Of a stretch of 64,000 nt of DNA, positions 14,479 through 33,178 are shown in pieces. The notes beneath the pieces are model-generated. The model ran no database searches and had not been told where the DNA came from. It was given only the letters and a program-made list of their open reading frames with translations. The DNA is from a virus: the IMG/VR virus record IMGVR_UViG_3300042879_006196, positions 1-64,000 of that record. One strand, given 5' to 3'. The first letter of the stretch is position 1. Each line of letters opens with the position of its first letter. A program made the position numbers and the translations under genes.

Positions 14479-14649
14479 ATGATTAATACAGATTGTGTGA
14501 AAATATATGAGGAAGAATATCAGGTGAGCAAGCAGGTGAGCCATCAGCAGGTGATGGATCGGGTGATGACTCTAGTGTGGTATCAGATTCGCCACGAGGT
14601 AGAGGATCAGGTATTAAGTGAGGTGTGGCTTAAGGTGTGGTATGATTAA
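14479..14649 (+). CDS. Array 1 unit 1
   Basis: 56 aa, MINTDCVKIYEEEYQV start, ends VWYD; 8-nt overlap with the next unit. Confidence 0.75.
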   Translation: MINTDCVKIYEEEYQVSKQVSHQQVMDRVMTLVWYQIRHEVEDQVLSEVWLKVWYD

Positions 14650-14809
14650 TACAGATTGTGTGGAAGTAAAAAAACAGGCACATAATCAGCTAAGGAATCA
14701 GGTGTTGAATCACGTGCGGTATCAGGTGTTGAATCACGTGCGGTATCAGGTGCTGAATCAGGTGTGGTATCTGGGGAGGGATCAGGTGTGGGTTAAGGTG
14801 TTTAGATGA
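14642..14809 (+). CDS. Array 1 unit 2
   Basis: 55 aa, ends KVFR; contains LNHVRYQV repeated twice. Confidence 0.75.
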   Translation: MINTDCVEVKKQAHNQLRNQVLNHVRYQVLNHVRYQVLNQVWYLGRDQVWVKVFR

Positions 14810-14994
14810 TTAATACAGATTGTGTGGAGATAAAAGATTGGGGTCATATAGAGGATCACGTGGAATATCAAACTTCGATTCAGGTATCAAATGAGGTGTG
14901 GAAGCAGGTGTATCTTCATCTGAGGAATCGAATGAAGAAAGAGATGTATTTCTACTTAAGGTGGGAGGTGTGGTTTAAGGTGTGGTTTGATTAA
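14806..14994 (+). CDS. Array 1 unit 3
   Basis: 62 aa, MINTDCVEIKDWGH start, ends VWFD; close paralogue of unit 4. Confidence 0.75.
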   Translation: MINTDCVEIKDWGHIEDHVEYQTSIQVSNEVWKQVYLHLRNRMKKEMYFYLRWEVWFKVWFD

Positions 14995-15175
14995 TACAGA
15001 TTGTGTGGAGATAAAAGATTGGGGTCATATATTGGATCATGTGGAATATCAAATTTCGACTCAGGTGTCAAGTGAGGTGTGGAAGCAGGTGTATTCGCAG
15101 GTGAGAAATCAAACGATGGATGAAATGTATTTCTACGAGAGAAAACAGGTGTGGCTTAAGGTGTGGTTTGATTAA
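14987..15175 (+). CDS. Array 1 unit 4 (TTG start)
   Basis: 62 aa; TTGATTAA overlap gives a TTG start; ends VWFD. Confidence 0.72.
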   Translation: MINTDCVEIKDWGHILDHVEYQISTQVSSEVWKQVYSQVRNQTMDEMYFYERKQVWLKVWFD

Positions 15176-15323
15176 TACAGATTGTGTGGAGATGTATGAG
15201 ATTAAAGATCAGGTGTGGGATAAGGTGGAGTATGAGGTTTCGATTCAAGTGAGGGATCAGGTGTGGGGTTATTTGTATTCCCTCATAAGGTACGAGGTGA
15301 GGCTTAAGGTGTGGTTTGATTAA
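15168..15323 (+). CDS. Array 1 unit 5 (TTG start)
   Basis: 51 aa, ends VWFD; TTG start in an 8-nt overlap. Confidence 0.72.
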   Translation: MINTDCVEMYEIKDQVWDKVEYEVSIQVRDQVWGYLYSLIRYEVRLKVWFD

Positions 15324-15507
15324 TACAGATTGTGTGGAGATAAAAGCGATTAGATATCAGGAGAGAAAACAGGTATGTGATCAGGTGAGAAATCAGGTGG
15401 GGAATGAGGTGAGGAATGAGGTGTGGCATCAGGTAGAGTATCAGGTGTGGGCAAAGGTGTGGTGGTCAGGTGAGGGGAATCACTTGAGTGATCGGATTTT
15501 CAAATGA
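15316..15507 (+). CDS. Array 1 unit 6 (TTG start)
   Basis: 63 aa; regular QVRNQVGNEVRNEV tract; ends in a divergent SDRIFK. Confidence 0.72.
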   Translation: MINTDCVEIKAIRYQERKQVCDQVRNQVGNEVRNEVWHQVEYQVWAKVWWSGEGNHLSDRIFK

Positions 15508-15653
15508 TTAATACAGATTGTTTAAAGGTGAAGGTTGAAGATCAGGTGCAGAATCAGGTGTATAATCTCCTAAGGATTCATGTGAAGCTCCAGTTGGACT
15601 ATCAGGTGTGGGATCGTTTGTTTTGGGAAATGCGGTGGAAGGTGTTCAAATGA
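15504..15653 (+). CDS. Array 1 unit 7
   Basis: 49 aa, MINTDCLKVKVEDQV start, ends WKVFK. Confidence 0.72.
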   Translation: MINTDCLKVKVEDQVQNQVYNLLRIHVKLQLDYQVWDRLFWEMRWKVFK

Positions 15654-15790
15654 TTAATACAGATTGTGTGGAGATATTTGAGATTGAAAGTAAGGCGTAT
15701 GATCAGGTTATGGAACTGGTCTATTATCAGGTTTGGGAACAGGGGTGGTCGAGGGTAAGAGTGTATATGTGTCGTGAGGTGTTCAGATGA
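15650..15790 (+). CDS. Array 1 unit 8
   Basis: 46 aa, ends CREVFR; few regular repeats. Confidence 0.72.
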   Translation: MINTDCVEIFEIESKAYDQVMELVYYQVWEQGWSRVRVYMCREVFR

Positions 15791-15951
15791 TTAATACAGA
15801 TTGTGTGGAGATATTTAACATTAAAGATCGAGTGGGGGAGCAGGTGATATTTGAGGTGAGGATTAAGGTGGTGGATAAGGTGTTGTGGAAGGTGTATGAT
15901 TGGGCGAGGGATCAGGTAAAGGGTAAGGTAAGAGTGAAGGTGTTCAGATGA
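15787..15951 (+). CDS. Array 1 unit 9
   Basis: 54 aa, MINTDCVEIFNIKDRV start, ends VKVFR. Confidence 0.72.
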   Translation: MINTDCVEIFNIKDRVGEQVIFEVRIKVVDKVLWKVYDWARDQVKGKVRVKVFR

Positions 15952-16106
15952 TTAATACAGATTGTGTGGAAGTGAAGAATCAGGTGAAGAATCAAATGAG
16001 GAATCATGTACAGTATCATGTGCAGACTCAGGTGTATGAAAAGGTAGATTATCAGGTGTGGGATAAGGTGTGGTATCTAATGAGGAATAAGGTGATAAAT
16101 GATTGA
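15948..16106 (+). CDS. Array 1 unit 10
   Basis: 52 aa, ends NKVIND with a TGA stop; near copy of the unit at 25724. Confidence 0.72.
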   Translation: MINTDCVEVKNQVKNQMRNHVQYHVQTQVYEKVDYQVWDKVWYLMRNKVIND

Positions 16107-16287
16107 TATAGATTGTGTGGAGATATTTGAGATTAGAGATCGGGTGAAAAATCAGGTGGTGGATAAGGTGTTGTGGAAGGTGTGGTATCTGGCGAGGAAT
16201 CAGGTGAGGGGTCAGGTGTATCTAAAGGTGTGGGATAAGGTGTGTGATCAAGTTGTGTGTCAGGTGTGGCTTAAGGTGCTCAAATGA
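16099..16287 (+). CDS. Array 1 unit 11
   Basis: 62 aa, variant start MIDIDCVEIF; ends VLK. Confidence 0.72.
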   Translation: MIDIDCVEIFEIRDRVKNQVVDKVLWKVWYLARNQVRGQVYLKVWDKVCDQVVCQVWLKVLK

Positions 16288-16502
16288 TTAATACAGATTG
16301 TATGGTAGTGAAGAATCAGGTGAAGAATCAGGTGTTGGATCAGGTGAGTTATCAGGTGTGGGATCAGGTGCTGTATCAGATGTGGCATCAGGTGTATCAT
16401 CACGTGAGGGATCAGGTGTGGTATCAAGTGGAGGATCAGGTGTATGATAAGGTGTGGCATCCTGTGAAATATCGGGTAAAGGGTCAGGTGTTCGATGATT
16501 AA
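16284..16502 (+). CDS. Array 1 unit 12
   Basis: 72 aa, one of the most regular tetrad tracts (DQVSYQVWDQVLYQ); ends VFDD. Confidence 0.78.
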   Translation: MINTDCMVVKNQVKNQVLDQVSYQVWDQVLYQMWHQVYHHVRDQVWYQVEDQVYDKVWHPVKYRVKGQVFDD

Positions 16503-16578
16503 TACAGATTGTTTGAAGGTGAAACATCAATTTAAGAAAGTGGAATCTCAGGTGTGGGATCAGGTGATAGATGATTAA
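16495..16578 (+). CDS. Array 1 unit 13 (short)
   Basis: 27 aa, MINTDCLKVKHQ to QVIDD; a contracted unit. Confidence 0.6.
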   Translation: MINTDCLKVKHQFKKVESQVWDQVIDD

Positions 16579-16729
16579 TACAGATTGTGTTGGAGTAAAT
16601 CATAAAGTATTTTTTGAGAATGTGTCCTTTGAATTGTGGCATCAGACGAGGAATAATCTAAGGTGGCAGGTGAGGAACCAGGTGTGGTTTAAGGTGTATC
16701 TTCAGGTATGGCATAAGGTGTTCAGATGA
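16571..16729 (+). CDS. Array 1 unit 14
   Basis: 52 aa, MINTDCVGVNHKVFF start, ends HKVFR. Confidence 0.72.
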   Translation: MINTDCVGVNHKVFFENVSFELWHQTRNNLRWQVRNQVWFKVYLQVWHKVFR

Positions 16730-16845
16730 TTAATACAGATTGTGTGGAGATATTTGAGAATCGAAATCAGGTGATAACTCAGTTGAGTGATCAGGTGAGT
16801 TCGAATCTGGTGCATAGTCAGGTGTGGTTTAAGGTGTTCAGATGA
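16726..16845 (+). CDS. Array 1 unit 15 (short)
   Basis: 39 aa, ends FKVFR. Confidence 0.68.
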   Translation: MINTDCVEIFENRNQVITQLSDQVSSNLVHSQVWFKVFR

Positions 16846-17018
16846 TTAATACAGATTGTGTGGAGATATTTGAGAATCTAAATCGGGTAGAGGGTAAGGT
16901 GAGGCATCAGGCAAGAGATCAGGTGAGTAATCATGTGTGGTATAAGTTGCGGGATAAGGTGTGGTGGGAGATGTGGTGCTACGTAAGAGTGAAGGCGTGG
17001 AGGAAAATGTTCGAATGA
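16842..17018 (+). CDS. Array 1 unit 16
   Basis: 58 aa, ends RKMFE. Confidence 0.72.
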   Translation: MINTDCVEIFENLNRVEGKVRHQARDQVSNHVWYKLRDKVWWEMWCYVRVKAWRKMFE

Positions 17019-17194
17019 TTAATACAGATTGTGTGGAGATGTATGATAATATTGAGTTATGGTGGAAGGTGACAGATAAAGTGTATGCTGTGGCGAGGAG
17101 TCAGGTGCAGAATCAGGTATTGTTTCATACAAAGACTCATCCTAAGGTGAAACTGAAGGTGAAAGATCAGGTATATTATGAGGTGCTCAGATGA
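17015..17194 (+). CDS. Array 1 unit 17
   Basis: 59 aa, MINTDCVEMYDNIELW start, ends YEVLR. Confidence 0.72.
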   Translation: MINTDCVEMYDNIELWWKVTDKVYAVARSQVQNQVLFHTKTHPKVKLKVKDQVYYEVLR

Positions 17195-17394
17195 TTAATA
17201 CAGATTGTGTGGAGATATTTGAGATTGAAGATCAGGGTTGGGATCAGGTGAGTGATCAGGTGAGTGATCAGGTGGAGTATCAGGTGTGGGAGCAGGTGTG
17301 GTGGAAGGTGTGGGATCAGGTGTGGTATCAGGTGTGGTATCAGGTGTGGTATCTGGCGTGGGATAAGGCGTGGGATGAGGTGATAAATGATTAA
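17191..17394 (+). CDS. Array 1 unit 18
   Basis: 67 aa, very regular (DQVSDQVSDQVEYQVW); ends VIND. Confidence 0.78.
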   Translation: MINTDCVEIFEIEDQGWDQVSDQVSDQVEYQVWEQVWWKVWDQVWYQVWYQVWYLAWDKAWDEVIND

Positions 17395-17551
17395 TACAGA
17401 TTGTGTGGAGATGTATGAGATTGAAAATCAGGTGTGGGATCAGGTGAGTGATCAGGTGGAGCATCAAGTGTGGTATCAAGTGGAGCATCCTTTGTATGCT
17501 CAGGCGAGGGATCAAGTGATGAACCAGGTGTGGCTCAAGGTGTTCAGATGA
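17387..17551 (+). CDS. Array 1 unit 19
   Basis: 54 aa, shares its first 25 residues closely with unit 18; ends LKVFR. Confidence 0.75.
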   Translation: MINTDCVEMYEIENQVWDQVSDQVEHQVWYQVEHPLYAQARDQVMNQVWLKVFR

Positions 17552-17712
17552 TTAATACAGATTGTGTTGAGATATTTGAGATTGAAGATCAGGCGTTGGA
17601 TCAGGTGAGTGATCAGGTGGAGTGGGAGGTGTGGCATCATGTGGAATATAAGGTGTGGTATAATGTGAGTAATCAGGTGAAAAACCCAGTGTGGTTTAAG
17701 GTGTTCGTATGA
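17548..17712 (+). CDS. Array 1 unit 20
   Basis: 54 aa, ends KNPVWFKVFV; its end is duplicated in unit 21. Confidence 0.75.
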   Translation: MINTDCVEIFEIEDQALDQVSDQVEWEVWHHVEYKVWYNVSNQVKNPVWFKVFV

Positions 17713-17864
17713 TTAATACAGATTGTGTGGATGTGAAGGTTGAGGATCAGATTTGGCGTCAGGTGAGTTATCAGGTGGAGTGGGATACGCGGCATCATGT
17801 GGAGGTGTGGTATAATGTGAGTAAGCAGGTGAAAAACCCAGTGTGGTTTAAGGTGTTCGTATGA
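17709..17864 (+). CDS. Array 1 unit 21
   Basis: 51 aa, ends KNPVWFKVFV as unit 20. Confidence 0.75.
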   Translation: MINTDCVDVKVEDQIWRQVSYQVEWDTRHHVEVWYNVSKQVKNPVWFKVFV

Positions 17865-18082
17865 TTAATACAGATTGTGTGGGTGTGAAGGTTGAGGATC
17901 AGATTTGGTGTCAAGTGGAAAATCAGGTGGAGTGTCAGTTGTCGTACTGGGTATGTGATGAGGTGAGATTTGATGCGGTTGATACAGTTTGGCATGAAGT
18001 GGGGTATAAGTTGTATGATCACATGGTTTTTCCAGGTTTAACATTACCCGATTATACTGGATATGATTCAAAAAAAAGATGA
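17861..18082 (+). CDS. Array 1 unit 22 (last)
   Basis: 73 aa. Repeats degenerate in the second half. The C-terminus (VFPGLTLPDYTGYDSKKR) is encoded by the rIIA promoter and the first codons of rIIA, a 20-nt overlap. Confidence 0.7.
   Translation: MINTDCVGVKVEDQIWCQVENQVECQLSYWVCDEVRFDAVDTVWHEVGYKLYDHMVFPGLTLPDYTGYDSKKR
18027..18058 (+). promoter_or_regulatory. Class A promoter for rIIA-like gene
   Basis: TTTTTCCAGGTTTAACA, TATACT 18053-18058, 4 nt before ATG 18063. Confidence 0.85.
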
Positions 18083-20204: not shown

Positions 20205-20238
20205 ATGACTTAGTTACCAACATGCAGAAAATTTAATC

Positions 20239-20364: not shown

Positions 20365-20437
20365 CTATTCTTGAATAGTTATCGTAAATAAAATTGTATT
20401 ATAGATTGAATCTTTTATAGAATTAGTGTGTAATACA

Positions 20438-20470
20438 TTTTTTCCAGGTTTAACAAAACAGGATTATAAT
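20438..20470 (+). promoter_or_regulatory. Class A promoter
   Basis: TTTTTTCCAGGTTTAACA, TATAAT 20465-20470, 4 nt before ATG 20475. Confidence 0.85.
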
Positions 20471-22127: not shown

Positions 22128-22160
22128 TTTTTTCCAGATTTAACAATTATTATTTATATT
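22128..22160 (+). promoter_or_regulatory. Class A promoter of array 2
   Basis: TTTTTTCCAGATTTAACA, TATATT 22155-22160, 4 nt before the ATG of the first array-2 unit. Confidence 0.85.
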
Positions 22161-22164: not shown

Positions 22165-22317
22165 ATGATCAACACAGATTGTGCGGAAGTAAATGAAAAA
22201 GTGAATCCTATACAGCATCATGCAATTAATCAAGTACAGTATGAATTGGAGATTGAAGTTTGGGATATGGTAAAATGTAAGGTATCAGGTGAGGTAAGTT
22301 GTCAGGTGTTCGATTGA
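22165..22317 (+). CDS. Array 2 unit 1
   Basis: 50 aa, MINTDCAEVNEKV start, degenerate repeats, leaderless; ends QVFD. Confidence 0.75.
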   Translation: MINTDCAEVNEKVNPIQHHAINQVQYELEIEVWDMVKCKVSGEVSCQVFD

Positions 22318-22469
22318 TTAATACAGATTGTGTGAAAGTGGAACATCCAGTGTGGACTCAAGTGCGAGATCAGCTGTTCTCTCAGGTGCAGTGGAAGGTG
22401 TGCCATAACGTGCTGACTCAGGTGGAGTGGAAGATGCATGATCAGGTGTGGTGGAAGGTGTTCGATTGA
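22314..22469 (+). CDS. Array 2 unit 2 (TTG start)
   Basis: 51 aa, ends KVFD; TTGA overlap. Confidence 0.72.
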   Translation: MINTDCVKVEHPVWTQVRDQLFSQVQWKVCHNVLTQVEWKMHDQVWWKVFD

Positions 22470-22618
22470 TTAATACAGATTGTGTTAAGGTGTGGGAGAA
22501 AAAGGATAAGGTGAGGGGTCAGGTGTGTTATCAAGTGATGGGTCAGGTAGAAGATCAGGTGCATGGTCCTTTGTTTCGGGAAATGTGGTGGCAGGTGTGG
22601 TTTGAGGTTTTCAAATGA
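22466..22618 (+). CDS. Array 2 unit 3 (TTG start)
   Basis: 50 aa, ends EVFK. Confidence 0.72.
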   Translation: MINTDCVKVWEKKDKVRGQVCYQVMGQVEDQVHGPLFREMWWQVWFEVFK

Positions 22619-22794
22619 TAAATACAGATTGTGTGAAGGTGAGGGAGAAAAAGATTCAGGAGTGCGATCAGGTGTATGAGCAGGTGTATGAGCAGGTGTA
22701 TTGTCAGGTGAGTAATCATGTGGAGTATCAGGTGTGGGAGCAGGTGTGGTGCAAGGTATGTAAAAAAGTGTGGTTTAAGGTCTATAATGATTAA
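22615..22794 (+). CDS. Array 2 unit 4
   Basis: 59 aa; regular DQVYEQVYEQVYCQV tract; ends VYND. Confidence 0.75.
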   Translation: MINTDCVKVREKKIQECDQVYEQVYEQVYCQVSNHVEYQVWEQVWCKVCKKVWFKVYND

Positions 22795-22963
22795 TACAGA
22801 TTGTGTGGAGGTGAGGGAGAAAAAGAATCAGGCGACTGAGCAGGTGTATGAGCAGGTGTGTGAGCAGGTGGGGTGGAATGTGGAGTATCAGGTGTGGGAG
22901 CAGGTAGAAGATCAGGTGTGGGATCGTTTGTTTTGGTACTCGCGCTTTGAGGTGTTCAAATGA
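22787..22963 (+). CDS. Array 2 unit 5
   Basis: 58 aa, EQVYEQVCEQV tract, ends FEVFK. Confidence 0.75.
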   Translation: MINTDCVEVREKKNQATEQVYEQVCEQVGWNVEYQVWEQVEDQVWDRLFWYSRFEVFK

Positions 22964-23148
22964 TTAATACAGATTGTGTGGTGAAGAAGCAGGTGTGGGA
23001 GTATGTAGAAAGTCAGGTGTTGTGGAAGGTGTATGATTGGGTGAGTGAGCAGGTGAATTGGCAAGTGGAGATTCAGTTGTGGGATAAGCTGTTTGCTCAG
23101 GAAAGACATCAGGTACGGCATCAGGTAAAAGTGAAGGTGTTCAAATGA
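22960..23148 (+). CDS. Array 2 unit 6
   Basis: 62 aa, MINTDCVVKKQVWEYV start, ends VKVFK. Confidence 0.75.
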   Translation: MINTDCVVKKQVWEYVESQVLWKVYDWVSEQVNWQVEIQLWDKLFAQERHQVRHQVKVKVFK

Positions 23149-23288
23149 TTAATACAGATTGTGTGGAAGTTGAAAGCCATGTGAAGAATCAGGGGTTTGA
23201 TCAGGTGTGGAATCAGGTGGAACTTCAGGTGTGGGGTCAGGTGTGGGATTATTTGTGGTGGAAGGTGTGGCTTGAGGTGTTCGAATGA
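23145..23288 (+). CDS. Array 2 unit 7
   Basis: 47 aa, ends LEVFE. Confidence 0.72.
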   Translation: MINTDCVEVESHVKNQGFDQVWNQVELQVWGQVWDYLWWKVWLEVFE

Positions 23289-23461
23289 TTAATACAGATT
23301 GTGTGTATGATTGGGTGAGTGGTGATTGGGTGAGTGATCAGGTGGAGCTTCATGTGAGGAATCAAGTGCGGGGTCAGGTGTGGGGTCAGGTGTGGGATAA
23401 GGTGCGGGATCAGGTGGAGTATCAGGTGTGGGAGCAGGTGTGGTTTGAGGTGCTCAGATGA
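23285..23461 (+). CDS. Array 2 unit 8
   Basis: 58 aa, GQVWGQVWDKVRDQV tract, ends FEVLR. Confidence 0.75.
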   Translation: MINTDCVYDWVSGDWVSDQVELHVRNQVRGQVWGQVWDKVRDQVEYQVWEQVWFEVLR

Positions 23462-24342: not shown

Positions 24343-24412
24343 TACAGATTGTGTCAAGGTGAGGGAGCAAGATAAGGTGTGGGATCAGGTGTGGTGGAAG
24401 GTGCTCAAATGA
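24335..24412 (+). CDS. Array 2 unit 14 (short)
   Basis: 25 aa, ends WKVLK; contracted unit. Confidence 0.6.
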   Translation: MINTDCVKVREQDKVWDQVWWKVLK

Positions 24413-24603
24413 TTAAAACAGATATTGTGAAAGTGAAACGTGAAAATCAAATGTGTTTTAAGATTTATCACAATTTGGAACAACAAGTGCACTGGAATAT
24501 ACTTTATCTGGTGAAAGCTCAAACGAAAAATAGACTTTTTGCACAGAAGAATCTGCTGGGTAGGATTGTAGATCGCGAGATCAAAAGGCGCTCAAATGAT
24601 TAA
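24409..24603 (+). CDS. Array 2 unit 15 (divergent)
   Basis: 64 aa, MIKTDIVKVKRENQ start with little tetrad repeat; related to the last unit at 27233 (CFKIY block). Confidence 0.72.
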   Translation: MIKTDIVKVKRENQMCFKIYHNLEQQVHWNILYLVKAQTKNRLFAQKNLLGRIVDREIKRRSND

Positions 24604-24679
24604 TACAGATTGTGTGGTTGTGTGGAATCAGGTGAGACATCAGGTACGGCATCAGGTAAAAGTGAAGGTGTTCAAATGA
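24596..24679 (+). CDS. Array 2 unit 16 (short)
   Basis: 27 aa, ends VKVFK. Confidence 0.6.
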   Translation: MINTDCVVVWNQVRHQVRHQVKVKVFK

Positions 24680-24909
24680 TTAATACAGATTGTGTGGAGG
24701 TATGTGAGATTAATCATGTATGGACTCAGGTGAATTATAAGGTGACACATCAGGTGAAGAGAGTGGCATCTCAGGTTCACTCTGAGGTGAGACATCAGGT
24801 ACGGCATCAGGTGTGGTGTGAGGTAGAGGATCAGGTGGAGTGGAATGTGTGGAATAAGGTGCTGGGTCAGGTGTGGAATCAGGTGAGGATTCAGGTGTGG
24901 TATGATTAA
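24676..24909 (+). CDS. Array 2 unit 17
   Basis: 77 aa, MINTDCVEVCEINHVW start, shared with 29654; ends IQVWYD. Confidence 0.75.
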   Translation: MINTDCVEVCEINHVWTQVNYKVTHQVKRVASQVHSEVRHQVRHQVWCEVEDQVEWNVWNKVLGQVWNQVRIQVWYD

Positions 24910-25072
24910 TACAGATTGTGTGGAAGATCAGGTGTGGGATCAGGTGGAGCTTCAGGTGTGTAATCAGGTGAGGTATCAGGTGAGGTATCAGGTGAGGGTT
25001 CAGGTGTGTGATAAGGTGAGGGGGAGGTGGTGCTACGTAAGAGTGAAGGTGTTGTTTAAGGTGTTCAGATGA
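24902..25072 (+). CDS. Array 2 unit 18
   Basis: 56 aa; DQVWDQVELQVCNQV start shared with units 13 and 19; then a GRWCYVRVKV segment where the tetrad phase breaks; ends KVFR. Confidence 0.72.
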   Translation: MINTDCVEDQVWDQVELQVCNQVRYQVRYQVRVQVCDKVRGRWCYVRVKVLFKVFR

Positions 25073-25257
25073 TTAATACAGATTGTGTGGAAGATCAGGT
25101 GTGGGATCAGGTGGAGCTTCAGGTGTGTAATCAGGCGAGGTATCAGGTGAGGTATCAGGTGAGGGAGGAGGTGTCTGATAAGGTGAGGGGTCAGGTGAGA
25201 TATAAGGTGAGGCATCATGTGAGAGATCAGGTGGTGTGTGAGGTGTTCTATGATTAA
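25069..25257 (+). CDS. Array 2 unit 19
   Basis: 62 aa, near duplicate of unit 13; ends CEVFYD. Confidence 0.75.
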   Translation: MINTDCVEDQVWDQVELQVCNQARYQVRYQVREEVSDKVRGQVRYKVRHHVRDQVVCEVFYD

Positions 25258-25399
25258 TACAGATTGTGTAAAGGTGAGGGAGCAAGATAAGGTGTGGAAT
25301 CAGGTGCAGGATCATGTGTGGTTTGAGTTGTGGTATAAGGTGCGGGATCAGGTGAAGATTGAGGTGAGGTTTCAGGTGTGGGTTCAGGTGTTCAAATGA
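25250..25399 (+). CDS. Array 2 unit 20
   Basis: 49 aa; its DHVWFELWYKVRDQVK block recurs in unit 24. Confidence 0.72.
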   Translation: MINTDCVKVREQDKVWNQVQDHVWFELWYKVRDQVKIEVRFQVWVQVFK

Positions 25400-25560
25400 T
25401 AAATACAGATTGTGTGGAAGTGGAAGATGATTCAAATTTGACTAAAATGAAACATGTGTTGACTCATGTGCGCGATAGGGTGGAGGTTAGGGTGTGGTTT
25501 GCGGTGTCGGCTCTTGTGGAATGTCGGTATTGGTATGAAGTAAGAGATAATGTGTTCTAA
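25396..25560 (+). CDS. Array 2 unit 21
   Basis: 54 aa, starts ATGATAAATACAG; ends RDNVF with TAATG overlap. Confidence 0.72.
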   Translation: MINTDCVEVEDDSNLTKMKHVLTHVRDRVEVRVWFAVSALVECRYWYEVRDNVF

Positions 25561-25724
25561 TGATTAATACAGATTGTGTGGAAGTGAAACATCCAGTGTG
25601 GGGTGAGGTGAGGGAACAGGCAAGGGTTACAATAGTTTATCATTTGTGGCATCAGGTGTGGTACCAGGTTGCGTGGGATGTAGAGGATCAGGTGTTGGAT
25701 CAGGTGTGGAATCAGGTGTTCTAA
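25560..25724 (+). CDS. Array 2 unit 22
   Basis: 54 aa, ends NQVF; TAATG 1-nt overlap on both sides. Confidence 0.72.
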   Translation: MINTDCVEVKHPVWGEVREQARVTIVYHLWHQVWYQVAWDVEDQVLDQVWNQVF

Positions 25725-25891
25725 TGATTAATACAGATTGTGTGGTAGCGAAGAATCTGGTGCGGAATCAAATGAGGAATCATGTACAGTATCAGGTGCA
25801 GACTCAGGTGTATGAAAAGGTAGATTATCAGGTGTGGGATAAGGTGCGATGGAAGGTGTATGCTCAGGTGCGGGATAAGGTGTTTAGATGA
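25724..25891 (+). CDS. Array 2 unit 23
   Basis: 55 aa, near copy of array 1 unit 10 (NQMRNHVQYQVQTQVYEK). Confidence 0.75.
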   Translation: MINTDCVVAKNLVRNQMRNHVQYQVQTQVYEKVDYQVWDKVRWKVYAQVRDKVFR

Positions 25892-26061
25892 TTAATACAG
25901 ATTGTGTGGAAGTGAGGGAGCGGGATCAGGCGTGGAAAAAAGTGCAGAATCATGTGTGGAATCAGGTGCAGGATCATGTGTGGTTTGAGTTGTGGTATAA
26001 GGTGCGGGATCAGGTGAAGATTGAGGTGTGGAATAGGGTGTGGTGGAAGGTGTTCAAATGA
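25888..26061 (+). CDS. Array 2 unit 24
   Basis: 57 aa, ends WKVFK. Confidence 0.72.
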   Translation: MINTDCVEVRERDQAWKKVQNHVWNQVQDHVWFELWYKVRDQVKIEVWNRVWWKVFK

Positions 26062-26231
26062 TAAATACAGATTGTGTGAAAGATCAGGTGTGGAATCAGG
26101 TGTGGAATAAGGTGTTGAATCAGGCGTGGGGTCAGGTGGAGTATCAGGTGGAGATTCAGGTGTGGGATCAGGTATGGATTCAGGTATGGAAGGTGTGTTG
26201 TAAAATACAGAATCAGGTGTGGCATGATTAA
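26058..26231 (+). CDS. Array 2 unit 25
   Basis: 57 aa, MINTDCVKDQVWNQVWNKV start, ends VWHD. Confidence 0.75.
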   Translation: MINTDCVKDQVWNQVWNKVLNQAWGQVEYQVEIQVWDQVWIQVWKVCCKIQNQVWHD

Positions 26232-26409
26232 TACAGATTGTGTGGATGTATGTGATAATAATTATCAGTTTTGGTATGTAGTGTCTCAGGTTCAGGTTGA
26301 GGCAAATCAGGTGGAGATTCAGGTGTTTAGACAAGTGAGGAAACTAACGTGGGCTCAGGTAAGATATCAGGTGACACACAAGGTAATTGATCAGGTGTGG
26401 TATGATTAA
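26224..26409 (+). CDS. Array 2 unit 26
   Basis: 61 aa, MINTDCVDVCDNNYQFW start, ends QVWYD. Confidence 0.75.
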   Translation: MINTDCVDVCDNNYQFWYVVSQVQVEANQVEIQVFRQVRKLTWAQVRYQVTHKVIDQVWYD

Positions 26410-26575
26410 TACAGATTGTGTGAAAGATCAGGTGTGGAATAAGGCGCTGGATCAGAAGTGGGGTCAGGTGAGGAAACAGGTGTGTGAGCATGTATGGGAT
26501 CAGGTGTGGAATAAGGTGTGGGATCGTTTGTTTTGGGTAAGATTCAAGGTGAAGTATCAGGTGTGGCATGATTAA
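26402..26575 (+). CDS. Array 2 unit 27
   Basis: 57 aa, ends YQVWHD. Confidence 0.75.
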   Translation: MINTDCVKDQVWNKALDQKWGQVRKQVCEHVWDQVWNKVWDRLFWVRFKVKYQVWHD

Positions 26576-26765
26576 TACAGATTGTGTGAAAGTGAGTGAG
26601 TGTGATAAGGTGCAGGATCAGGTGAGACAGCAGATGCGGGATCAGGTGAAAGATCAGGCGTTGAAGGGGTTTATTCAGGTATATTGGCAGGTGAGTAATC
26701 AGGTGGAGTATAAGGTGTGGGAGAAGGTGATCAAACAGGTACGACTTCAGGTGTGGTATGATTAA
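26568..26765 (+). CDS. Array 2 unit 28
   Basis: 65 aa, MINTDCVKVSECDKV start, ends LQVWYD. Confidence 0.75.
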   Translation: MINTDCVKVSECDKVQDQVRQQMRDQVKDQALKGFIQVYWQVSNQVEYKVWEKVIKQVRLQVWYD

Positions 26766-26928
26766 TACAGATTGTGTGAAAGAGCAGGTGTGGAATAAGG
26801 TGCTGGGTCAGGTGAGATACAAGGTGAGGTATCAGGTAGAGGATAAGGTGGAGTGGAAGGTGTTAAATCAGGTATATGATAAGGTGTTTAAATTGAATTA
26901 TAAGGTGTTGAAAAAGGTGTTCAGATGA
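26758..26928 (+). CDS. Array 2 unit 29
   Basis: 56 aa, ends KKVFR. Confidence 0.72.
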   Translation: MINTDCVKEQVWNKVLGQVRYKVRYQVEDKVEWKVLNQVYDKVFKLNYKVLKKVFR

Positions 26929-27080
26929 TTAATACAGATTGTATAGAGATATTTGAGATTGAAGATCAGGCGTTGGATCAGGTGAGTGATCAGGTGGAGA
27001 TGGAGGTGAGGTATCAGGTGAGATATAAGGTGAGGCATCATGTGAGAGATCAGGTGTGGTGTGAGGTGTTCTATGATTAA
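26925..27080 (+). CDS. Array 2 unit 30
   Basis: 51 aa, MINTDCIEIFEIEDQAL start identical to unit 31; ends EVFYD. Confidence 0.75.
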   Translation: MINTDCIEIFEIEDQALDQVSDQVEMEVRYQVRYKVRHHVRDQVWCEVFYD

Positions 27081-27240
27081 TACAGATTGTATAGAGATAT
27101 TTGAGATTGAAGATCAGGCGTTGGATCAGGTGAGTGATCAGGTGGAGATGGAGGTGTGGCATCATGTGTTGGATCAAGTTGTGGGTGAGGTGTGGTATCA
27201 GGTGTGGTATCAGGTGAATTATCAGGTGTGGTATGATTAA
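27073..27240 (+). CDS. Array 2 unit 31
   Basis: 55 aa, first 28 residues as unit 30, then different repeats; a clear junction of duplication. Confidence 0.75.
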   Translation: MINTDCIEIFEIEDQALDQVSDQVEMEVWHHVLDQVVGEVWYQVWYQVNYQVWYD

Positions 27241-27430
27241 TACAGATTGTGTGAAAGTGAAACGTGAAGATCAATTGTGTTTTAAGATTTATTATAATTT
27301 CGATCATAAAATGCACTGGGAGATGATGTATCAAGCGCATTACAAACCCCAATATCAAGCAGAATATTATTTATGCTGTAATATTTACAATAAAGGATGG
27401 AAGCAGATAACAGAGCAGATATTCAAATGA
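27233..27430 (+). CDS. Array 2 unit 32 (last, divergent)
   Basis: 65 aa, MINTDCVKVKRED start; tetrad repeats lost, aromatic and Cys-rich instead; ends EQIFK. Confidence 0.72.
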   Translation: MINTDCVKVKREDQLCFKIYYNFDHKMHWEMMYQAHYKPQYQAEYYLCCNIYNKGWKQITEQIFK

Positions 27431-27900: not shown

Positions 27901-27902
27901 GA

Positions 27903-27935
27903 TTTTTTCCAGTTTTAACATTTTCTTTTTATAAT
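27903..27935 (+). promoter_or_regulatory. Class A promoter of array 3
   Basis: TTTTTTCCAGTTTTAACA, TATAAT 27930-27935; the first ATG is 33 nt on, so this transcript has a short leader. Confidence 0.8.
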
Positions 27936-27968
27936 GTTTCCAAGACAAATTTCGTAGAATGTAGTGGT

Positions 27969-28136
27969 ATGATTAATATACATAATGTAGAATTGAATGA
28001 CAAGGATTACATAAAAATAAAAGATTTCATTTCTTCCCATGTAAATGAAAATGTCTGGTTTCGTGTGAATGATCAAGTGAGGAAATATTTCTGCCATAAA
28101 CACAGAGGTAAAATTTATAAGAGGATGTTCAAATGA
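27969..28136 (+). CDS. Array 3 unit 1 (divergent)
   Basis: 55 aa, MINIHNVELNDKDY start, almost no tetrad repeats; ends RMFK. Confidence 0.7.
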   Translation: MINIHNVELNDKDYIKIKDFISSHVNENVWFRVNDQVRKYFCHKHRGKIYKRMFK

Positions 28137-28324
28137 TTAATATAGATTGTGTGAAGGTATTTGATATGAAACAGGTGTGGGATGAGCTGACTTTTCAAGT
28201 GAGTGATCCAGTGGATAAGCATGTGCTGTCTGACGTGTGGTATCAAGTGAGGGATAAGGTGTGGATTCAGGTACGATTTAAGGTGTGGATTAGGGTGTTG
28301 TTATGGTTAATACAGATTGTGTGA
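28133..28324 (+). CDS. Array 3 unit 2 (read-through end)
   Basis: 63 aa, MINIDCVKVFDM start. The frame runs through the next start and ends WLIQIV, giving a 22-nt overlap. Confidence 0.7.
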   Translation: MINIDCVKVFDMKQVWDELTFQVSDPVDKHVLSDVWYQVRDKVWIQVRFKVWIRVLLWLIQIV

Positions 28325-28491
28325 AGGTGAGGGTGCTGAATCAGGTGAGTGATCAGGTGCGGGATCAAGTGAACTATCCAGAGGCAAATCATGTGCTGTC
28401 TGACGTGTGGCATCAAGTGAGGGATCAGGTGTGGATTCAGGTACGATTTAAGGTGTGGATTAGGGTGTTATGGTTAATACAGATTGTGTGA
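28303..28491 (+). CDS. Array 3 unit 3 (read-through end)
   Basis: 62 aa, MVNTDCVKV start, close copy of unit 2, also ends WLIQIV through the next start. Confidence 0.7.
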   Translation: MVNTDCVKVRVLNQVSDQVRDQVNYPEANHVLSDVWHQVRDQVWIQVRFKVWIRVLWLIQIV

Positions 28492-28637
28492 AGGTATTTA
28501 ACCTAATACAAGCGTGGGATGAACTAACAACTTATCAGGTAAGGTATTCAGTGAAATATCATGTGCTGCATAATCTCTGGTATGAAGTGGGGGCTGGGGT
28601 GAAGATTGAGGTGAGGCATAAGGTGTGGTTTGATTAA
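28470..28637 (+). CDS. Array 3 unit 4
   Basis: 55 aa, MVNTDCVKVFNLIQ start, ends KVWFD. Confidence 0.72.
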   Translation: MVNTDCVKVFNLIQAWDELTTYQVRYSVKYHVLHNLWYEVGAGVKIEVRHKVWFD

Positions 28638-28784
28638 TACAGATTGTTTGAAGTAAAAGTGATTAGATATCAGGTAAGTGATAAGTTGTGGGAGTTGGTG
28701 ATCAGACAGGTATGGAATCAGGTGAGGTATAATGGTCGGTGGCATCAGGTAGAGGGGAGGGTGCGGGATCGGTTGTTCAAATGA
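28630..28784 (+). pseudogene. Array 3 unit 5, frameshifted
   Basis: TTG start then MINTDCLK and stop. Relative to intact units one base is missing in GTGTGGAA (here GTTTGAA). Beyond it the other frame continues V-K-V-I-R-Y-Q-V and ends DRLFK. Confidence 0.75.
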
Positions 28785-28957
28785 TTAATACAGATTGTGT
28801 GGAAGTGAATTATAGGGGGTGGATTCAGGTACGATTTAAGGTGTGGTTTGAGGTGAGAGATCGGGTGTGGCTTGAGGTAAGTGAACATCCAGTGTGGAGT
28901 CAAATTTTTTTCCATCAGGTGTTTGAAAAGGTGGAGTGCGAAGTGTGGTATGATTAA
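28781..28957 (+). CDS. Array 3 unit 6
   Basis: 58 aa, MINTDCVEVNYRGW start, ends CEVWYD. Confidence 0.73.
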   Translation: MINTDCVEVNYRGWIQVRFKVWFEVRDRVWLEVSEHPVWSQIFFHQVFEKVECEVWYD

Positions 28958-29153
28958 TATAGATTATGTGAGGGTGAGGAATCAGGTGGGTGAGCAGGTG
29001 AGCTGTCAGGTGTGGAATCAGGTGTTTGAGCATTTAGAAGATCAGGTAGAGTATCAAGTGTATAATCAGATTTTGTCTGAGTTGCATGATCAGTTGTATT
29101 ATAAGGACTGGGAGGTGTGTTATAAAATACGGCAAAAGGTGTGGTATGATTAA
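28950..29153 (+). CDS. Array 3 unit 7
   Basis: 67 aa, MINIDYVRVRNQV start, ends QKVWYD. Confidence 0.73.
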   Translation: MINIDYVRVRNQVGEQVSCQVWNQVFEHLEDQVEYQVYNQILSELHDQLYYKDWEVCYKIRQKVWYD

Positions 29154-29289
29154 TACAGATTGTGTGAAAGTGGAGAATCATGGTTGTTGGCAGTTTAGGG
29201 ATCAGGTGTGGTATCAAGTGGAGCAACAGGTGTGGCACAAGGTGTCTAATGGGGTTCGGGATAGGGTGTGGATTAAGGTGTTCAGATGA
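29146..29289 (+). CDS. Array 3 unit 8
   Basis: 47 aa, ends IKVFR. Confidence 0.73.
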   Translation: MINTDCVKVENHGCWQFRDQVWYQVEQQVWHKVSNGVRDRVWIKVFR

Positions 29290-29474
29290 TTAATACAGAT
29301 TGTGTGAAGGTATTTGAACTAAATCAATTGTGGAATCAAGTGAGTGATCAGGTGGAGTGGAAGGTGCGTGATGAGGTAGAGTATAAGGTGTGGCTTCAGG
29401 TAAGATACAAGGTGTGGGATCAGGTGCAGTTTTGGGTAAGATTCAAGGTGAAGTATCAGGTGTGGCATGATTAA
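29286..29474 (+). CDS. Array 3 unit 9
   Basis: 62 aa, MINTDCVKVFELNQLW start; ends RFKVKYQVWHD as array 2 unit 27. Confidence 0.75.
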   Translation: MINTDCVKVFELNQLWNQVSDQVEWKVRDEVEYKVWLQVRYKVWDQVQFWVRFKVKYQVWHD

Positions 29475-29661
29475 TACAGATTGTGTGGAAGTGAAACATC
29501 CAGTGTGGACTCAGGTGCAGAATCAGGTATATTGGCAGGTGAGTAAACAGGCATGTCATAAGGTGGAGTGGAAGGTGTGGCATAAGGTGTGTAGTGGGGT
29601 GCGGGAATGGGTTGTGTATCAGGTGTGGGATCGGGTTGTGTATCTAACGTTAAATGATTAA
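29467..29661 (+). CDS. Array 3 unit 10
   Basis: 64 aa, MINTDCVEVKHPVWTQV start, ends YLTLND. Confidence 0.75.
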   Translation: MINTDCVEVKHPVWTQVQNQVYWQVSKQACHKVEWKVWHKVCSGVREWVVYQVWDRVVYLTLND

Positions 29662-29830
29662 TACAGATTGCGTGAAGGTATGTGAGATTAATCATGTATG
29701 GACTCAGGTGAATTATAAGGTGACACATCAGGTGAAAAGAGTGGCATCTCAGGTTCGCTTTGAGGTGATGAGTCAGGTGTGGGATCAGGTGTATTGGATG
29801 ATGTGGCAAAAGGTGGTGTGGTATGATTAA
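29654..29830 (+). CDS. Array 3 unit 11
   Basis: 58 aa, first half nearly identical to array 2 unit 17; ends VVWYD. Confidence 0.75.
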   Translation: MINTDCVKVCEINHVWTQVNYKVTHQVKRVASQVRFEVMSQVWDQVYWMMWQKVVWYD

Positions 29831-29966
29831 TACAGATTGTGTGGAAGTGGAACATAAAGTGTTGGAGACGATGTGGTATCATATGTGGGAAAAGGTGTGC
29901 TATGGGCTGATATTTCAGGTATGTAGTGAAGTGAGGCTTAAAGTGAGGCTTAAGGTTTTTGTTTGA
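29823..29966 (+). CDS. Array 3 unit 12 (early stop)
   Basis: 47 aa, ends KVFV 8 nt before the next start rather than overlapping it. Confidence 0.68.
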   Translation: MINTDCVEVEHKVLETMWYHMWEKVCYGLIFQVCSEVRLKVRLKVFV

Positions 29967-29974
29967 GGTGTGGT

Positions 29975-30157
29975 ATGATTAATACAGATTGTGTGGAGAT
30001 GGTGCGTCCAGTGTGGACTCAGGTTCGAAATCAACTGTTTACTCAGGTGCAGAATCAGGTAGATCATAAGGTGAGGGCTCAGGTGTTCTTGAACGTGTGG
30101 TCTAAGGTGTGGGATCAGGGGTGGTATCAGGCGTGGGATAAGGTGATAAATGATTAA
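29975..30157 (+). CDS. Array 3 unit 13
   Basis: 60 aa, MINTDCVEMVRPVW start, ends VIND. Confidence 0.74.
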   Translation: MINTDCVEMVRPVWTQVRNQLFTQVQNQVDHKVRAQVFLNVWSKVWDQGWYQAWDKVIND

Positions 30158-30368
30158 TACAGATTTTGTGGAAGTGAAAAATCAAATGTGGGGTGAGGTG
30201 AGGGATCATGCGTGGTTGAAGGTGTGGTATCTGGCGAGGAATCAGGTGAGGAACCAGGTAAATGATCAGGTAAGTGGTGAGGTGATTAGTCTGCTTGTGT
30301 ATCAGGTGTGGCATCAGGTGTTGTATCAGTTGACTGATATGGTTTGGAATAAGGTGATAAATGATTAA
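30150..30368 (+). CDS. Array 3 unit 14
   Basis: 72 aa, MINTDFVEVKNQMW start, ends VIND. Confidence 0.74.
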   Translation: MINTDFVEVKNQMWGEVRDHAWLKVWYLARNQVRNQVNDQVSGEVISLLVYQVWHQVLYQLTDMVWNKVIND

Positions 30369-30576
30369 TACAGATTGTGTGGAAGTGAAAAATCATCCAC
30401 ATATGCAGGTAAGACAGCAGATGAGACACAGGGCGTGGTTTCAGGTGTGGAATCAGTTGGTTCCTATGGTTTGTGATCATGTGTGGAAGCACATGTATAT
30501 TCAGGTGCAAATTCAAGTGTTGGATAAAGTGATGTATGGATTGTATGAAGAAGGTGAACAATCAGGTGTGGCATGA
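30361..30576 (+). CDS. Array 3 unit 15
   Basis: 71 aa, MINTDCVEVKNHPHMQ start; ends EQSGVA, a tail out of the usual phase. Confidence 0.72.
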   Translation: MINTDCVEVKNHPHMQVRQQMRHRAWFQVWNQLVPMVCDHVWKHMYIQVQIQVLDKVMYGLYEEGEQSGVA

Positions 30577-30719
30577 TTAATACAGATTATGTGGGCTTAC
30601 TCGGAGCGGCAAAAACTCAGGCTCAAAATGAAATTAACAGTATTGTGCAACTTGAAGTGTGGGAGAAGGTGATCAGTCAGGCATGGCTTAACACGTGGCA
30701 AAAGGTGTGGTATGATTAA
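30573..30719 (+). CDS. Array 3 unit 16
   Basis: 48 aa, MINTDYVGLLGAAKTQ start, ends KVWYD. Confidence 0.72.
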   Translation: MINTDYVGLLGAAKTQAQNEINSIVQLEVWEKVISQAWLNTWQKVWYD

Positions 30720-30888
30720 TACAGATTGTGTGAAAGTGGGGAATCCAGTGGGGAATCAGTTGGGGTTTGAGGTGAATTTTCAGGCGAGGTGGCAAGTGAT
30801 GTCTCATGTGGAATATGTGGTGCGGCATGATGTGAGGGATCAGCTGGAGTGCAAAGTTTGGTATATGTGGTGGAAGGTGTGCAAATGA
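30712..30888 (+). CDS. Array 3 unit 17
   Basis: 58 aa, MINTDCVKVGNPVGNQ start, ends KVCK. Confidence 0.73.
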   Translation: MINTDCVKVGNPVGNQLGFEVNFQARWQVMSHVEYVVRHDVRDQLECKVWYMWWKVCK

Positions 30889-31088
30889 TTAATACAGATT
30901 GTGTGAAAGTGGAAAATCAAGTGTTTAATGAGGTGCAGAATCAGGTGTGGTGGAAGGTACATGCTCAGGTGTTCCGTAAGCTGAGAGGTAAGGAATGGTT
31001 GGCTGAGTTGTGGCAACAGAAAACATATGTTGTCACGTATCAGAATCAGGTTCTACTTAAAGTAAAACTTCAGGTGTGGTATGATTAA
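30885..31088 (+). CDS. Array 3 unit 18
   Basis: 67 aa, ends LQVWYD. Confidence 0.74.
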   Translation: MINTDCVKVENQVFNEVQNQVWWKVHAQVFRKLRGKEWLAELWQQKTYVVTYQNQVLLKVKLQVWYD

Positions 31089-31260
31089 TACAGATTGTGT
31101 GGAATTGTATAATGAGGTTTCGAATCAAGTGAGGGATCAGGCGTGGGCTCATGGACTTCAGGCGTGGTGGCAAGTGAGGAATAAGATAAGGTATCAGCCT
31201 TGGCATCAAATTAGTAGGAAGGTGAGAAAACAGGTATGGTATGAGGTGTGGTATGATTAA
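31081..31260 (+). CDS. Array 3 unit 19
   Basis: 59 aa, MINTDCVELYNEVSNQV start; its ISRKVRKQVW end is shared with unit 20. Confidence 0.74.
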   Translation: MINTDCVELYNEVSNQVRDQAWAHGLQAWWQVRNKIRYQPWHQISRKVRKQVWYEVWYD

Positions 31261-31504
31261 TACAGATTGTGTGAAAGTGTATAATGAGGTGCAGAATCAA
31301 GTGAGGGATCATGTGTGGATTAATACAGATTGTGTTAATACAGATTATGTTGAATTGTATTATGAGGTTTCGATTCAAGTGAGGGATCAGGTGTGGTATC
31401 AGGCGTGGGATAAGGTTTGGGATCAAGTGAGGAATAAGATGAAGTATCAGGCTTGGCATCAAATTAGTAGGAAGGTTAGAAAACAGGTATGGTTTGAGGT
31501 GTAG
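31253..31504 (+). CDS. Array 3 unit 20 (fused units)
   Basis: 83 aa, longest unit. Contains internal WINTDCVNTDYVELYY, the remains of two further starts, so it is an in-frame fusion of two or three units. Confidence 0.74.
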   Translation: MINTDCVKVYNEVQNQVRDHVWINTDCVNTDYVELYYEVSIQVRDQVWYQAWDKVWDQVRNKMKYQAWHQISRKVRKQVWFEV

Positions 31505-31505
31505 T

Positions 31506-31676
31506 ATGATTAATACAGATTTTGTGAAAGTGGAAATTTGGGTGTGGGATCAGCTAAAGAATCATGTGAAAAATGAATTTAGTAGTGAAGTGTGGCAACA
31601 GGTAAATGTTAGGATGTGCGATCAGGTGTGGGAGAAGGTGATCAGACAGGTACGATATAAGGTGTGGTATGATTAA
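31506..31676 (+). CDS. Array 3 unit 21
   Basis: 56 aa, MINTDFVKVEIWVW start, ends YKVWYD. Confidence 0.73.
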   Translation: MINTDFVKVEIWVWDQLKNHVKNEFSSEVWQQVNVRMCDQVWEKVIRQVRYKVWYD

Positions 31677-31833
31677 TACAGATTGTGTGAAGATATATAA
31701 TAGTAAAAATCCAATGATTGATCATATGTGGGATCTAGTGACAACCCAATCGTTTTATGAGTTTTTGAATTATGTGCTTTTCAAGGTAAAGAGACAGATA
31801 TGGAATAAGGTGTGGCTTGAGGTGTTCAAATGA
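31669..31833 (+). CDS. Array 3 unit 22
   Basis: 54 aa, degenerate repeats, ends LEVFK. Confidence 0.72.
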   Translation: MINTDCVKIYNSKNPMIDHMWDLVTTQSFYEFLNYVLFKVKRQIWNKVWLEVFK

Positions 31834-32003
31834 TTAATACAGATTGTGTGGAATTGAGCCATCACGCGCTGGATCAAGTGAGCAACAATACGCGGTATCA
31901 GCTGGAGTGGAAGGTATGGGCTCATGTGGATCATGCGGTAAAACAGATTGGTTTGCCGTTTAAGGTAAAGTTGCAGGTATGGAATAAGGTGATAAATGAT
32001 TAA
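31830..32003 (+). CDS. Array 3 unit 23
   Basis: 57 aa, MINTDCVELSHHAL start, ends VIND. Confidence 0.72.
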   Translation: MINTDCVELSHHALDQVSNNTRYQLEWKVWAHVDHAVKQIGLPFKVKLQVWNKVIND

Positions 32004-32193
32004 TACAGATTGTGTAAGGAATAAGATGAAGCAGAAGCACTTGGATTTTAGACATCAAACGCAAAAGTATGTATGGGCTAACTTTATATTAGGGCTTGAG
32101 TATCGTGTGAGACTTAATGTCTGTAGTAAGCTTACGAGTCAGATATATTATCAGGTGAGTGTATATATTTATAATAAGGTGTATGATGATTAA
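31996..32193 (+). CDS. Array 3 unit 24
   Basis: 65 aa, MINTDCVRNKMKQ start, tetrads lost; ends VYDD. Confidence 0.72.
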   Translation: MINTDCVRNKMKQKHLDFRHQTQKYVWANFILGLEYRVRLNVCSKLTSQIYYQVSVYIYNKVYDD

Positions 32194-32350
32194 TACAGAT
32201 TGTGTGCAGATAAATGATGATGAATATCAGGTAAAAAGTCAGAAGTATAAACATATATCTAATGAGATGTATCTTGAGGTGTGGTATGAGATGTCTCAAA
32301 AAGTATTATATTTTTCTGTGCGTGAGTTGTGCATTAAGGTGTTTAGATGA
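32186..32350 (+). CDS. Array 3 unit 25
   Basis: 54 aa, MINTDCVQINDDEYQV start, ends IKVFR. Confidence 0.72.
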   Translation: MINTDCVQINDDEYQVKSQKYKHISNEMYLEVWYEMSQKVLYFSVRELCIKVFR

Positions 32351-32499
32351 TTAAAATAGATTGTGTGGAGATTAAGGTTCAACATCACATTTGTCTTGTG
32401 CACATTCATGTTTCTAATCAGGCTTATCAGGTGTGGGACAAGAATTGTAAAGGAGTGTGTTTTCCAAGGCGTCAGTTGTGGTTTGAGGTGTTTAGATGA
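32347..32499 (+). CDS. Array 3 unit 26
   Basis: 50 aa, MIKIDCVEIKVQHH start, ends FEVFR. Confidence 0.7.
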   Translation: MIKIDCVEIKVQHHICLVHIHVSNQAYQVWDKNCKGVCFPRRQLWFEVFR

Positions 32500-32669
32500 T
32501 TAAAACAAATTGTGTGGAGATTAAGGTTCAAGATCAGATTTGGTTTGTGGATCATTATTTGTCCAATGAAATGTGGTGTCAGGCTTTGAACAATACAGTG
32601 CTTTGGGCAATTCCTAATGTGGTAATTTATAATGTGCGCGATAAAGCTTGGATCAAGGTGTTTAGATGA
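32496..32669 (+). CDS. Array 3 unit 27
   Basis: 57 aa, MIKTNCVEIKVQDQIW start, ends IKVFR. Confidence 0.7.
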   Translation: MIKTNCVEIKVQDQIWFVDHYLSNEMWCQALNNTVLWAIPNVVIYNVRDKAWIKVFR

Positions 32670-32824
32670 TTAACACAGATTGTGTGAGAGTGGACAGTCT
32701 TGAAATAAAGCATGAAGTTGTTTTTGAGATGAGGAATAAAGTGTGGAATCAAATATATTATCATGTGTCTTGTAAGGTTTGGAGGCTGGTAAAGCTTCAG
32801 GTGTTTGGGTGTTCAGATGATTAA
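32666..32824 (+). CDS. Array 3 unit 28
   Basis: 52 aa, MINTDCVRVDSLEIKH start; ends GCSDD. Confidence 0.7.
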   Translation: MINTDCVRVDSLEIKHEVVFEMRNKVWNQIYYHVSCKVWRLVKLQVFGCSDD

Positions 32825-32975
32825 TACAGATCGTGTGGATTTGAAAAATCATGATAATCTACATTATCATCTTACTAATTCACCAAGATGGTATGTGTGG
32901 GATCAAATTAATCTTCAAGTGAGGAATCATGTTTCTAAGGTAAGGTTTAAGTTGTGGGATGAGATGTTAAAATGA
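32817..32975 (+). CDS. Array 3 unit 29
   Basis: 52 aa, MINTDRVDLKNHDN start (Cys changed to Arg), ends DEMLK. Confidence 0.7.
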   Translation: MINTDRVDLKNHDNLHYHLTNSPRWYVWDQINLQVRNHVSKVRFKLWDEMLK

Positions 32976-33178
32976 TTAATACAGACTGTGTGAATATAAG
33001 GAATGGTGAAAAAATCCAAATGGATTTGCAGAACCATGTGGATATAGTTGATATCCATTCTGTTCGAAATTCTATTTATTATCAAGTAAGAAGATTAAGT
33101 AATGTAACTTTGATAAGATATAAATTACAAAAGATTTTTTTTGATTATTTGTCTTATGATTTATGTGGGATATTGTGA
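32972..33178 (+). CDS. Array 3 unit 30 (last)
   Basis: 68 aa, MINTDCVNIRNGEK start, no tetrad repeats; ends LCGIL just before the iterons. Confidence 0.7.
   Translation: MINTDCVNIRNGEKIQMDLQNHVDIVDIHSVRNSIYYQVRRLSNVTLIRYKLQKIFFDYLSYDLCGIL

Follow-up and report, generated by a model that had tools for sequence, protein, structure and literature searches.

The first 64,000 bases of the 347,392-base virus record IMGVR_UViG_3300042879_006196 (record label G000), the stretch that was analyzed and that we call the window, carry three tandem arrays of 84 overlapping mini-genes, whose products consist of a head of the type MINTDCV followed by a string of four-residue repeats, or tetrads (Table 1). 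Between the first two arrays lies the gene for a DUF6745 protein (Pfam PF20530). We propose, with confidence about evenly balanced, that the products of the arrays are a hypervariable repertoire of four-residue-repeat proteins, which would be exchangeable modules partnered with DUF6745. In each tetrad, a constant polar-hydrophobic pair (Q-V) would carry a variable pair, and each string of tetrads would display a different surface. Tandem recombination or slippage among the 12-bp units, together with selection, would quickly rewrite the strings, and the mini-proteins would cooperate with DUF6745 as interchangeable modules of binding or specificity. We infer that the partnership is a physical one and that the strings bind a target; a role in binding or as decoys is plausible.

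Anatomy and probable translation of the units

The sequence-only reading of the window had counted 84 units in arrays of 22, 32 and 30, and a recount gave exactly these numbers. Its claim that neighboring units keep their overlaps holds as well: these measure 4 nucleotides (nt) in 38 cases, 8 nt in 36, and 1 nt and 22 nt in two cases each, leaving only three gaps between neighbors inside the arrays. Together, the arrays occupy about 14 kb. The units start with ATG (78) or TTG (6) and are 25–83 amino acids long, the exception being unit 28630, in which a frameshift after the head leaves an open reading frame of 8 amino acids. With up to three mismatches allowed, the head ATGATTAATACAGATTGTGTG has 84 forward and no reverse matches in the genome, and a reversed-pattern control had none. 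The unit bodies are made of tetrads of the form x-Q/K/E/H-V/L/I/M/A-x, in which position 1 is Q, K, E or H and position 2 is hydrophobic (V in 70%). Unit 31253 (31253–31504) has a second head inside it (INTDCVNTDYV), a visible sign that units have fused or recombined.

The units are most likely translated proteins, judging from the sequence, because their frames are kept, stop codons are avoided, and a phage promoter stands before each array. Apart from the single frameshift, the reading frame is kept in all 84 units. Over about 4,700 codons, no stop interrupts the unit frame, whereas the other five frames have from 50 to 514; random divergence of 10% would be expected to introduce about 76 internal stops. 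Within the units, 63 CAG codons have become CAA and none TAG, and changes at the valine position mostly retain a hydrophobic residue. In the final tetrad before the start of the next unit, AAG-GTG is preferred, and this could be the ribosome-binding site for the unit that follows.

The promoter found upstream of each array is of the phage's own type, TTCCAG(G/A)TTTAAC-N10-TATAAT, of which there are 77 copies, all on the plus strand, at positions 1226–63782 of the window and beyond, driving most genes of the region. The ATG usually lies exactly 33 nt from the start of the promoter motif (TATAAT-N4-ATG), a spacing that suggests near-leaderless transcripts. From about 50 kb onward, many of the promoter copies come after a CTCCAAAGGGGAG stem-loop, similar to the stem-loops found at promoters in T4-type phages.

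Tetrad repeats in other phages and their link to DUF6745

Are such arrays peculiar to this phage? The sequence-only reading knew of no phage or bacterial system with this plan. As to described systems, this agrees with the literature covered (open-licence PubMed Central papers only), which yielded no mention of the repeat strings or of DUF6745. As to uniqueness it was wrong, since at least 10 other phage records have arrays of this kind. The further phages were found by a DNA pattern for QVxx repeats, followed by translation. Tetrads of the form [DNSG]-[QS]-[VL]-[WRGE] recur in dozens of other phages, some with mini-gene arrays and others with the tetrads inside a DUF6745 protein. The array form consists of head-to-tail tandem mini-genes with a head specific to each phage: about 47 units with MNNKLINDQ-type heads in a 369-kb phage (G001), eight with MTPIKDQV-type heads in G002, six with MTLSEEQIQPV heads in G003, eight with MKRE-type heads in G004, about 13 units in G005, and smaller sets in further records. 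In the fused form, a string of 6 to 85 tetrads lies between an N-terminal region and the DUF6745 core. Examples are gp38 of the M. abscessus prophage prophiGD102-1, with DQL(W/R/G) tetrads, and the DUF6745 protein of the Manatee Spring phage MW202476, with SSL(W/R/G/E) tetrads in the same place. (The fused examples were found via the repeat, and their count is therefore uninformative on the frequency of fusion.)

The codons behind these repeats differ between phages. The scaffold valine is encoded by GTG, GTT, GTA or GTC, the leucine of the QL scaffold by CTC, and an SL scaffold occurs too; for arginine, some phages use AGG and others CGG. The commonest residues of the variable pair are nonetheless the same across phages, W/R/G/E and then D/N/S/G, with a more mixed composition in the window and in G001. 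Scaffold and residue alphabet are thus conserved despite differing synonymous codons, which speaks for constraint at the level of the protein. We define an xQVx tetrad-repeat family by a period of four, a scaffold of a polar residue plus V or L, and a variable residue pair, all of which the window displays, and by the presence of DUF6745 in cis or in the same record, which the window also displays (four of the 14 array records longer than 20 kb depart from this; see below).

The link to DUF6745 was seen in several ways. The window gene matches the PF20530 Pfam profile at 98.7 bits (cut-off, 27), and PF20530 had no match in the 28 mini-gene units scanned. A DUF6745 gene is present in 10 of the 14 records of more than 20 kb that bear arrays, and in none of 28 control viral records. 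Most of these genes are found within a few kb of the array; those of G000, G001 and G005 lie inside an array or between arrays. The DUF6745 proteins of array phages have tetrad scores of 7.5–18 bits, that is, they are repeat-free, and the fused forms score 44–623 bits. This phage and at least nine others thus combine a repeat-free DUF6745 gene with separate tandem mini-genes. Such a cis/trans (Rosetta-stone) pattern suggests, from gene content, that the tetrad repeats work with DUF6745, in cis or in trans. The best viral matches of the DUF6745 protein are other DUF6745 proteins, and Pfam assigns the domain no function. PADLOC defence profiles had no match to the window DUF6745 protein or to the two units tried; fused relatives gave weak scores only (best E, 0.001, in the repeat region). 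The gp174 protein of Microcystis phage Ma-LMM01 (L278:6947–8083) is a repeat-free DUF6745 protein.

Searches with the units themselves gave little. Exact heads had no match in viral contigs, a MINTDCV protein search found no relative, and comparison with Pfam, PHROG and defence families returned no family (best E about 0.01, scattered). A cellular origin of the repeats was also considered and rejected: matches in genome contigs were mostly low-complexity reading frames or short contigs, and the few true ones (L154, L155/L276 and L167) lie on short contigs of metagenome-assembled genomes, possibly phage. These results bear on another reading, in which the variable copies are decoys that absorb a host defence factor or mimic a repeat-bearing host or prophage protein, with no need for DUF6745. 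Small proteins that are numerous and diverse, set among accessory genes and turning over rapidly between relatives, would suit decoys well. However, no clear cellular repeat protein has emerged that they could mimic, and the repeats occur fused to DUF6745 proteins of phages themselves; we consider decoys of this kind improbable.

Variation and turnover of the repeat strings

In many repeat regions the tetrads vary only at the two variable residues and show no synonymous change. For example, in L031, L208, L224, L245, the M. abscessus prophage and the Manatee phage (24–45 tetrads), the proportion of synonymous differences (pS) is 0 and that of non-synonymous differences (pN) is 0.10–0.14. This signal was not seen in G006, G004 or the fused L059, in which the ratios are near 1 or below. 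Autocorrelation revealed no periodicity in the order of the variable residues.

Comparison of relatives suggests that the strings change much faster than their surroundings. L178 and L187 have no mismatch in 244 bp upstream of the repeat and 13 in 1,491 bp downstream, yet their strings, of 30 and 35 tetrads, differ almost throughout. Between L180 and L195, the repeat accounts for 29 of 30 mismatches and for both 12-bp indels, and the sole difference between L187 and L223 over 2,699 bp is one base in a variable codon. G006 and G014 share about 95% identical DNA around the array and have six and two repeat mini-genes, respectively. A shuffled repertoire of small proteins, one of the possibilities raised by the sequence-only reading, accordingly finds support in stop avoidance, in conservation across synonymous codons, in non-synonymous variation at two residues, and in turnover between relatives.

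Could the arrays nevertheless be a runaway coding microsatellite? Slippage and unequal crossing-over would then multiply and reorder the 12-bp units; since the frame is preserved, this would be tolerated, and the mini-proteins would have little or no function. Unit length does vary freely, the heads look homogenized at the DNA level, one dead unit is tolerated, and pN/pS computed over whole units of the window is near 1. On the other hand, neutral shuffling would also spread synonymous variants, of which several repeat regions have none, and simple tandem duplication would leave a periodicity that the order of the variable residues lacks. Unrelated phages use the same residue alphabet with different codons, about 14 kb would have to be retained in a phage genome, and the DUF6745 link and its cis/trans pattern would be left unexplained. 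A microsatellite origin of this sort is therefore unlikely, although less so than the decoys.

The heads call for separate treatment. The head sequence contains a 10-mer, CAGATTGTGT, that is about 87-fold over-represented in the genome outside the arrays: CAGATTGTGT/ACACAATCTG has 157 copies there, against 1.8 expected, and 64 copies inside. The outside copies occur on either strand, in coding and non-coding DNA, and 96 of them are away from promoters; example sites in the window are 33193–33506, 34086 and 34208. Most single-base variants of the 10-mer are about as frequent as expected, those at position 1 and a few more being exceptions, and CAGATTGTGT looks like a specific genome-wide tag. 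Among head changes, non-synonymous and synonymous ones are about equally frequent per site. All this would fit a function at the DNA or RNA level, with the heads forming an array of binding sites (CAGATTGTGT), or with an AGGTG-rich transcript that binds ribosomes, and translation being secondary; the arrays are also strongly G-skewed. For the unit bodies, however, stops are avoided in the unit frame only, and in other array phages the heads are unrelated and the same protein repeat is encoded by different DNA. As an account of the whole arrays, such a function is very unlikely. The sequence-only reading had suggested a DNA- or RNA-level role with translation as a by-product, which is disfavored for the bodies and keeps for the heads the support of the equal change rates and the 10-mer.

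Structure prediction provides a further angle. For one unit, AlphaFold gave a single helix (H4–71; mean predicted local distance difference test score, pLDDT, 87), which by itself is weak evidence, and no relative of the units was found among solved structures by sequence or fold. The tetrad proteins might on this basis polymerize in infected cells as a filament or scaffold of helical or solenoid form (the sequence-only reading had suggested a filament or beta-solenoid), since their period-4 repeats are regular and variable in length. A polymer would have no need for random order or for the W/R/G/E diversity, and the fused repeats lack a confident fold, which makes this idea quite improbable.

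Several points weigh against the partnership with DUF6745 and the selection for diversity that we favor. Four array records longer than 20 kb are without DUF6745, although they may be fragments, and DUF6745 has no match among solved folds. AlphaFold has low confidence for the repeats within a fused DUF6745 protein. Diversifying selection is weaker in the window arrays than elsewhere: pN/pS is about 0.9 for similar unit pairs compared over their whole length and 1.5 when the variable pair is considered, and the former value leaves a ratio of substitution rates (dN/dS) above 1 over all window units unsupported. Finally, the phage comparisons are based on metagenome assemblies of repeats.

Genomic setting and known systems

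The 347-kb record is that of a tailed phage, with genes for a DNA polymerase, the large subunit of terminase, a portal protein and an exonuclease resembling RecJ. Searches for near relatives based on rIIA and on the promoter found none. Genes of the window include rIIA, DNA ligase, and rIIB-like, Mom-like and NAD-salvage-type genes, and the location of the arrays among rII, Mom-like and accessory genes suggests a role in host takeover or counter-defence. Immediately 3' of array 3 (33180–33345) are about four tandem copies of a repeat of about 50 bp with GATTGTGTTAGATTGTGG. At 13800–13967, AAGGTATAGTCC occurs together with a tRNA-like 3' half (GGTTCAAGTCCCTCTGCCCCGACCA) that was not reported by ARAGORN or Rfam; it is possibly a tRNA split by an intron.

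Table 1. Features of the array region, in window coordinates.
Feature	Position	Strand	Remarks
Promoter TTCCAGATTTAAC-N10-TATAAT	14079..14107	+	Upstream of DUF3307 gene and array 1
DUF3307 membrane-protein gene	14112..14477	+	First cistron of array 1 operon; 1-nt gap before unit 1
Array 1, 22 overlapping tetrad-repeat mini-genes	14479..18082	+	Last unit (17861–18082) overlaps rIIA and holds rIIA promoter
Example head ATGATTAATACAGATTGTGTG (MINTDCV)	14479..14499	+	Repeated at 84 places; contains CAGATTGTGT
rIIA promoter	18030..18058	+	Embedded in last array 1 unit
DUF6745 gene promoter	20442..20470	+	
DUF6745 gene, 364 amino acids	20475..21569	+	No tetrad repeats; between arrays 1 and 2; proposed mini-protein partner
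Array 2 promoter	22132..22160	+	
Array 2, 32 mini-genes	22165..27430	+	First unit begins exactly 33 nt after promoter motif start
Array 3 promoter	27907..27935	+	
Array 3, 30 mini-genes	27969..33178	+	Unit 28630 frameshifted; degenerate units toward either end

Why would a phage maintain such a repertoire? Tentatively, and with less confidence than in the partnership itself, the tetrapeptide alphabet (W/R/G/E by D/N/S/G, on a Q-V, Q-L or S-L scaffold) may be a rewritable recognition text, carried inside DUF6745 proteins or in libraries of up to 84 mini-proteins and diversified without a retroelement, which would make it a new class of hypervariable repertoire. If so, this would be an undescribed route to protein diversity in phages, with a scaffold frozen to the nucleotide and two residues free. 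DUF6745 would gain a context, and the arrays would constitute a natural library of repeat binders and possibly a pointer to the host target that drives the diversification. Because public phage records contain fused versions, one of them in the prophage of a cultured bacterium, the idea can be tested now.

The closest comparison is with the DUF6745 phage proteins, many of which carry the same tetrad repeat in fused form, in contrast to the 84 separate mini-genes found here; the prophiGD102-1 gp38 and MW202476 proteins, both annotated as hypothetical, are each encoded by a single fused gene and use QL or SL rather than QV. Diversity-generating retroelements (DGRs) likewise produce hypervariable protein positions in phage genes, but here tandem tetrads vary and not the adenines of one variable region. 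A DGR was rejected because the reverse transcriptase profile PF00078 had no match in the 347-kb record (which is possibly incomplete), and because variation is not confined to template adenines, T, G and C being among the alternatives at NGG codons. The pentapeptide-repeat proteins of the MfpA/Qnr type also have short repeats with a fixed hydrophobic residue, but their motif is A(D/N)LXX, and the period here is four and not five; PF00805 had no match in 28 units. The TALE, PUF and PPR codes share with the tetrads a constant scaffold with two variable residues per repeat, by analogy only, since the repeats here are of four residues and unrelated in sequence; a TALE-like protein was rejected, as it requires DNA-binding repeats of 33–35 residues. 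Within the literature covered, we rate the arrays as a categorically new system, a member of neither the DGR nor the TALE class.

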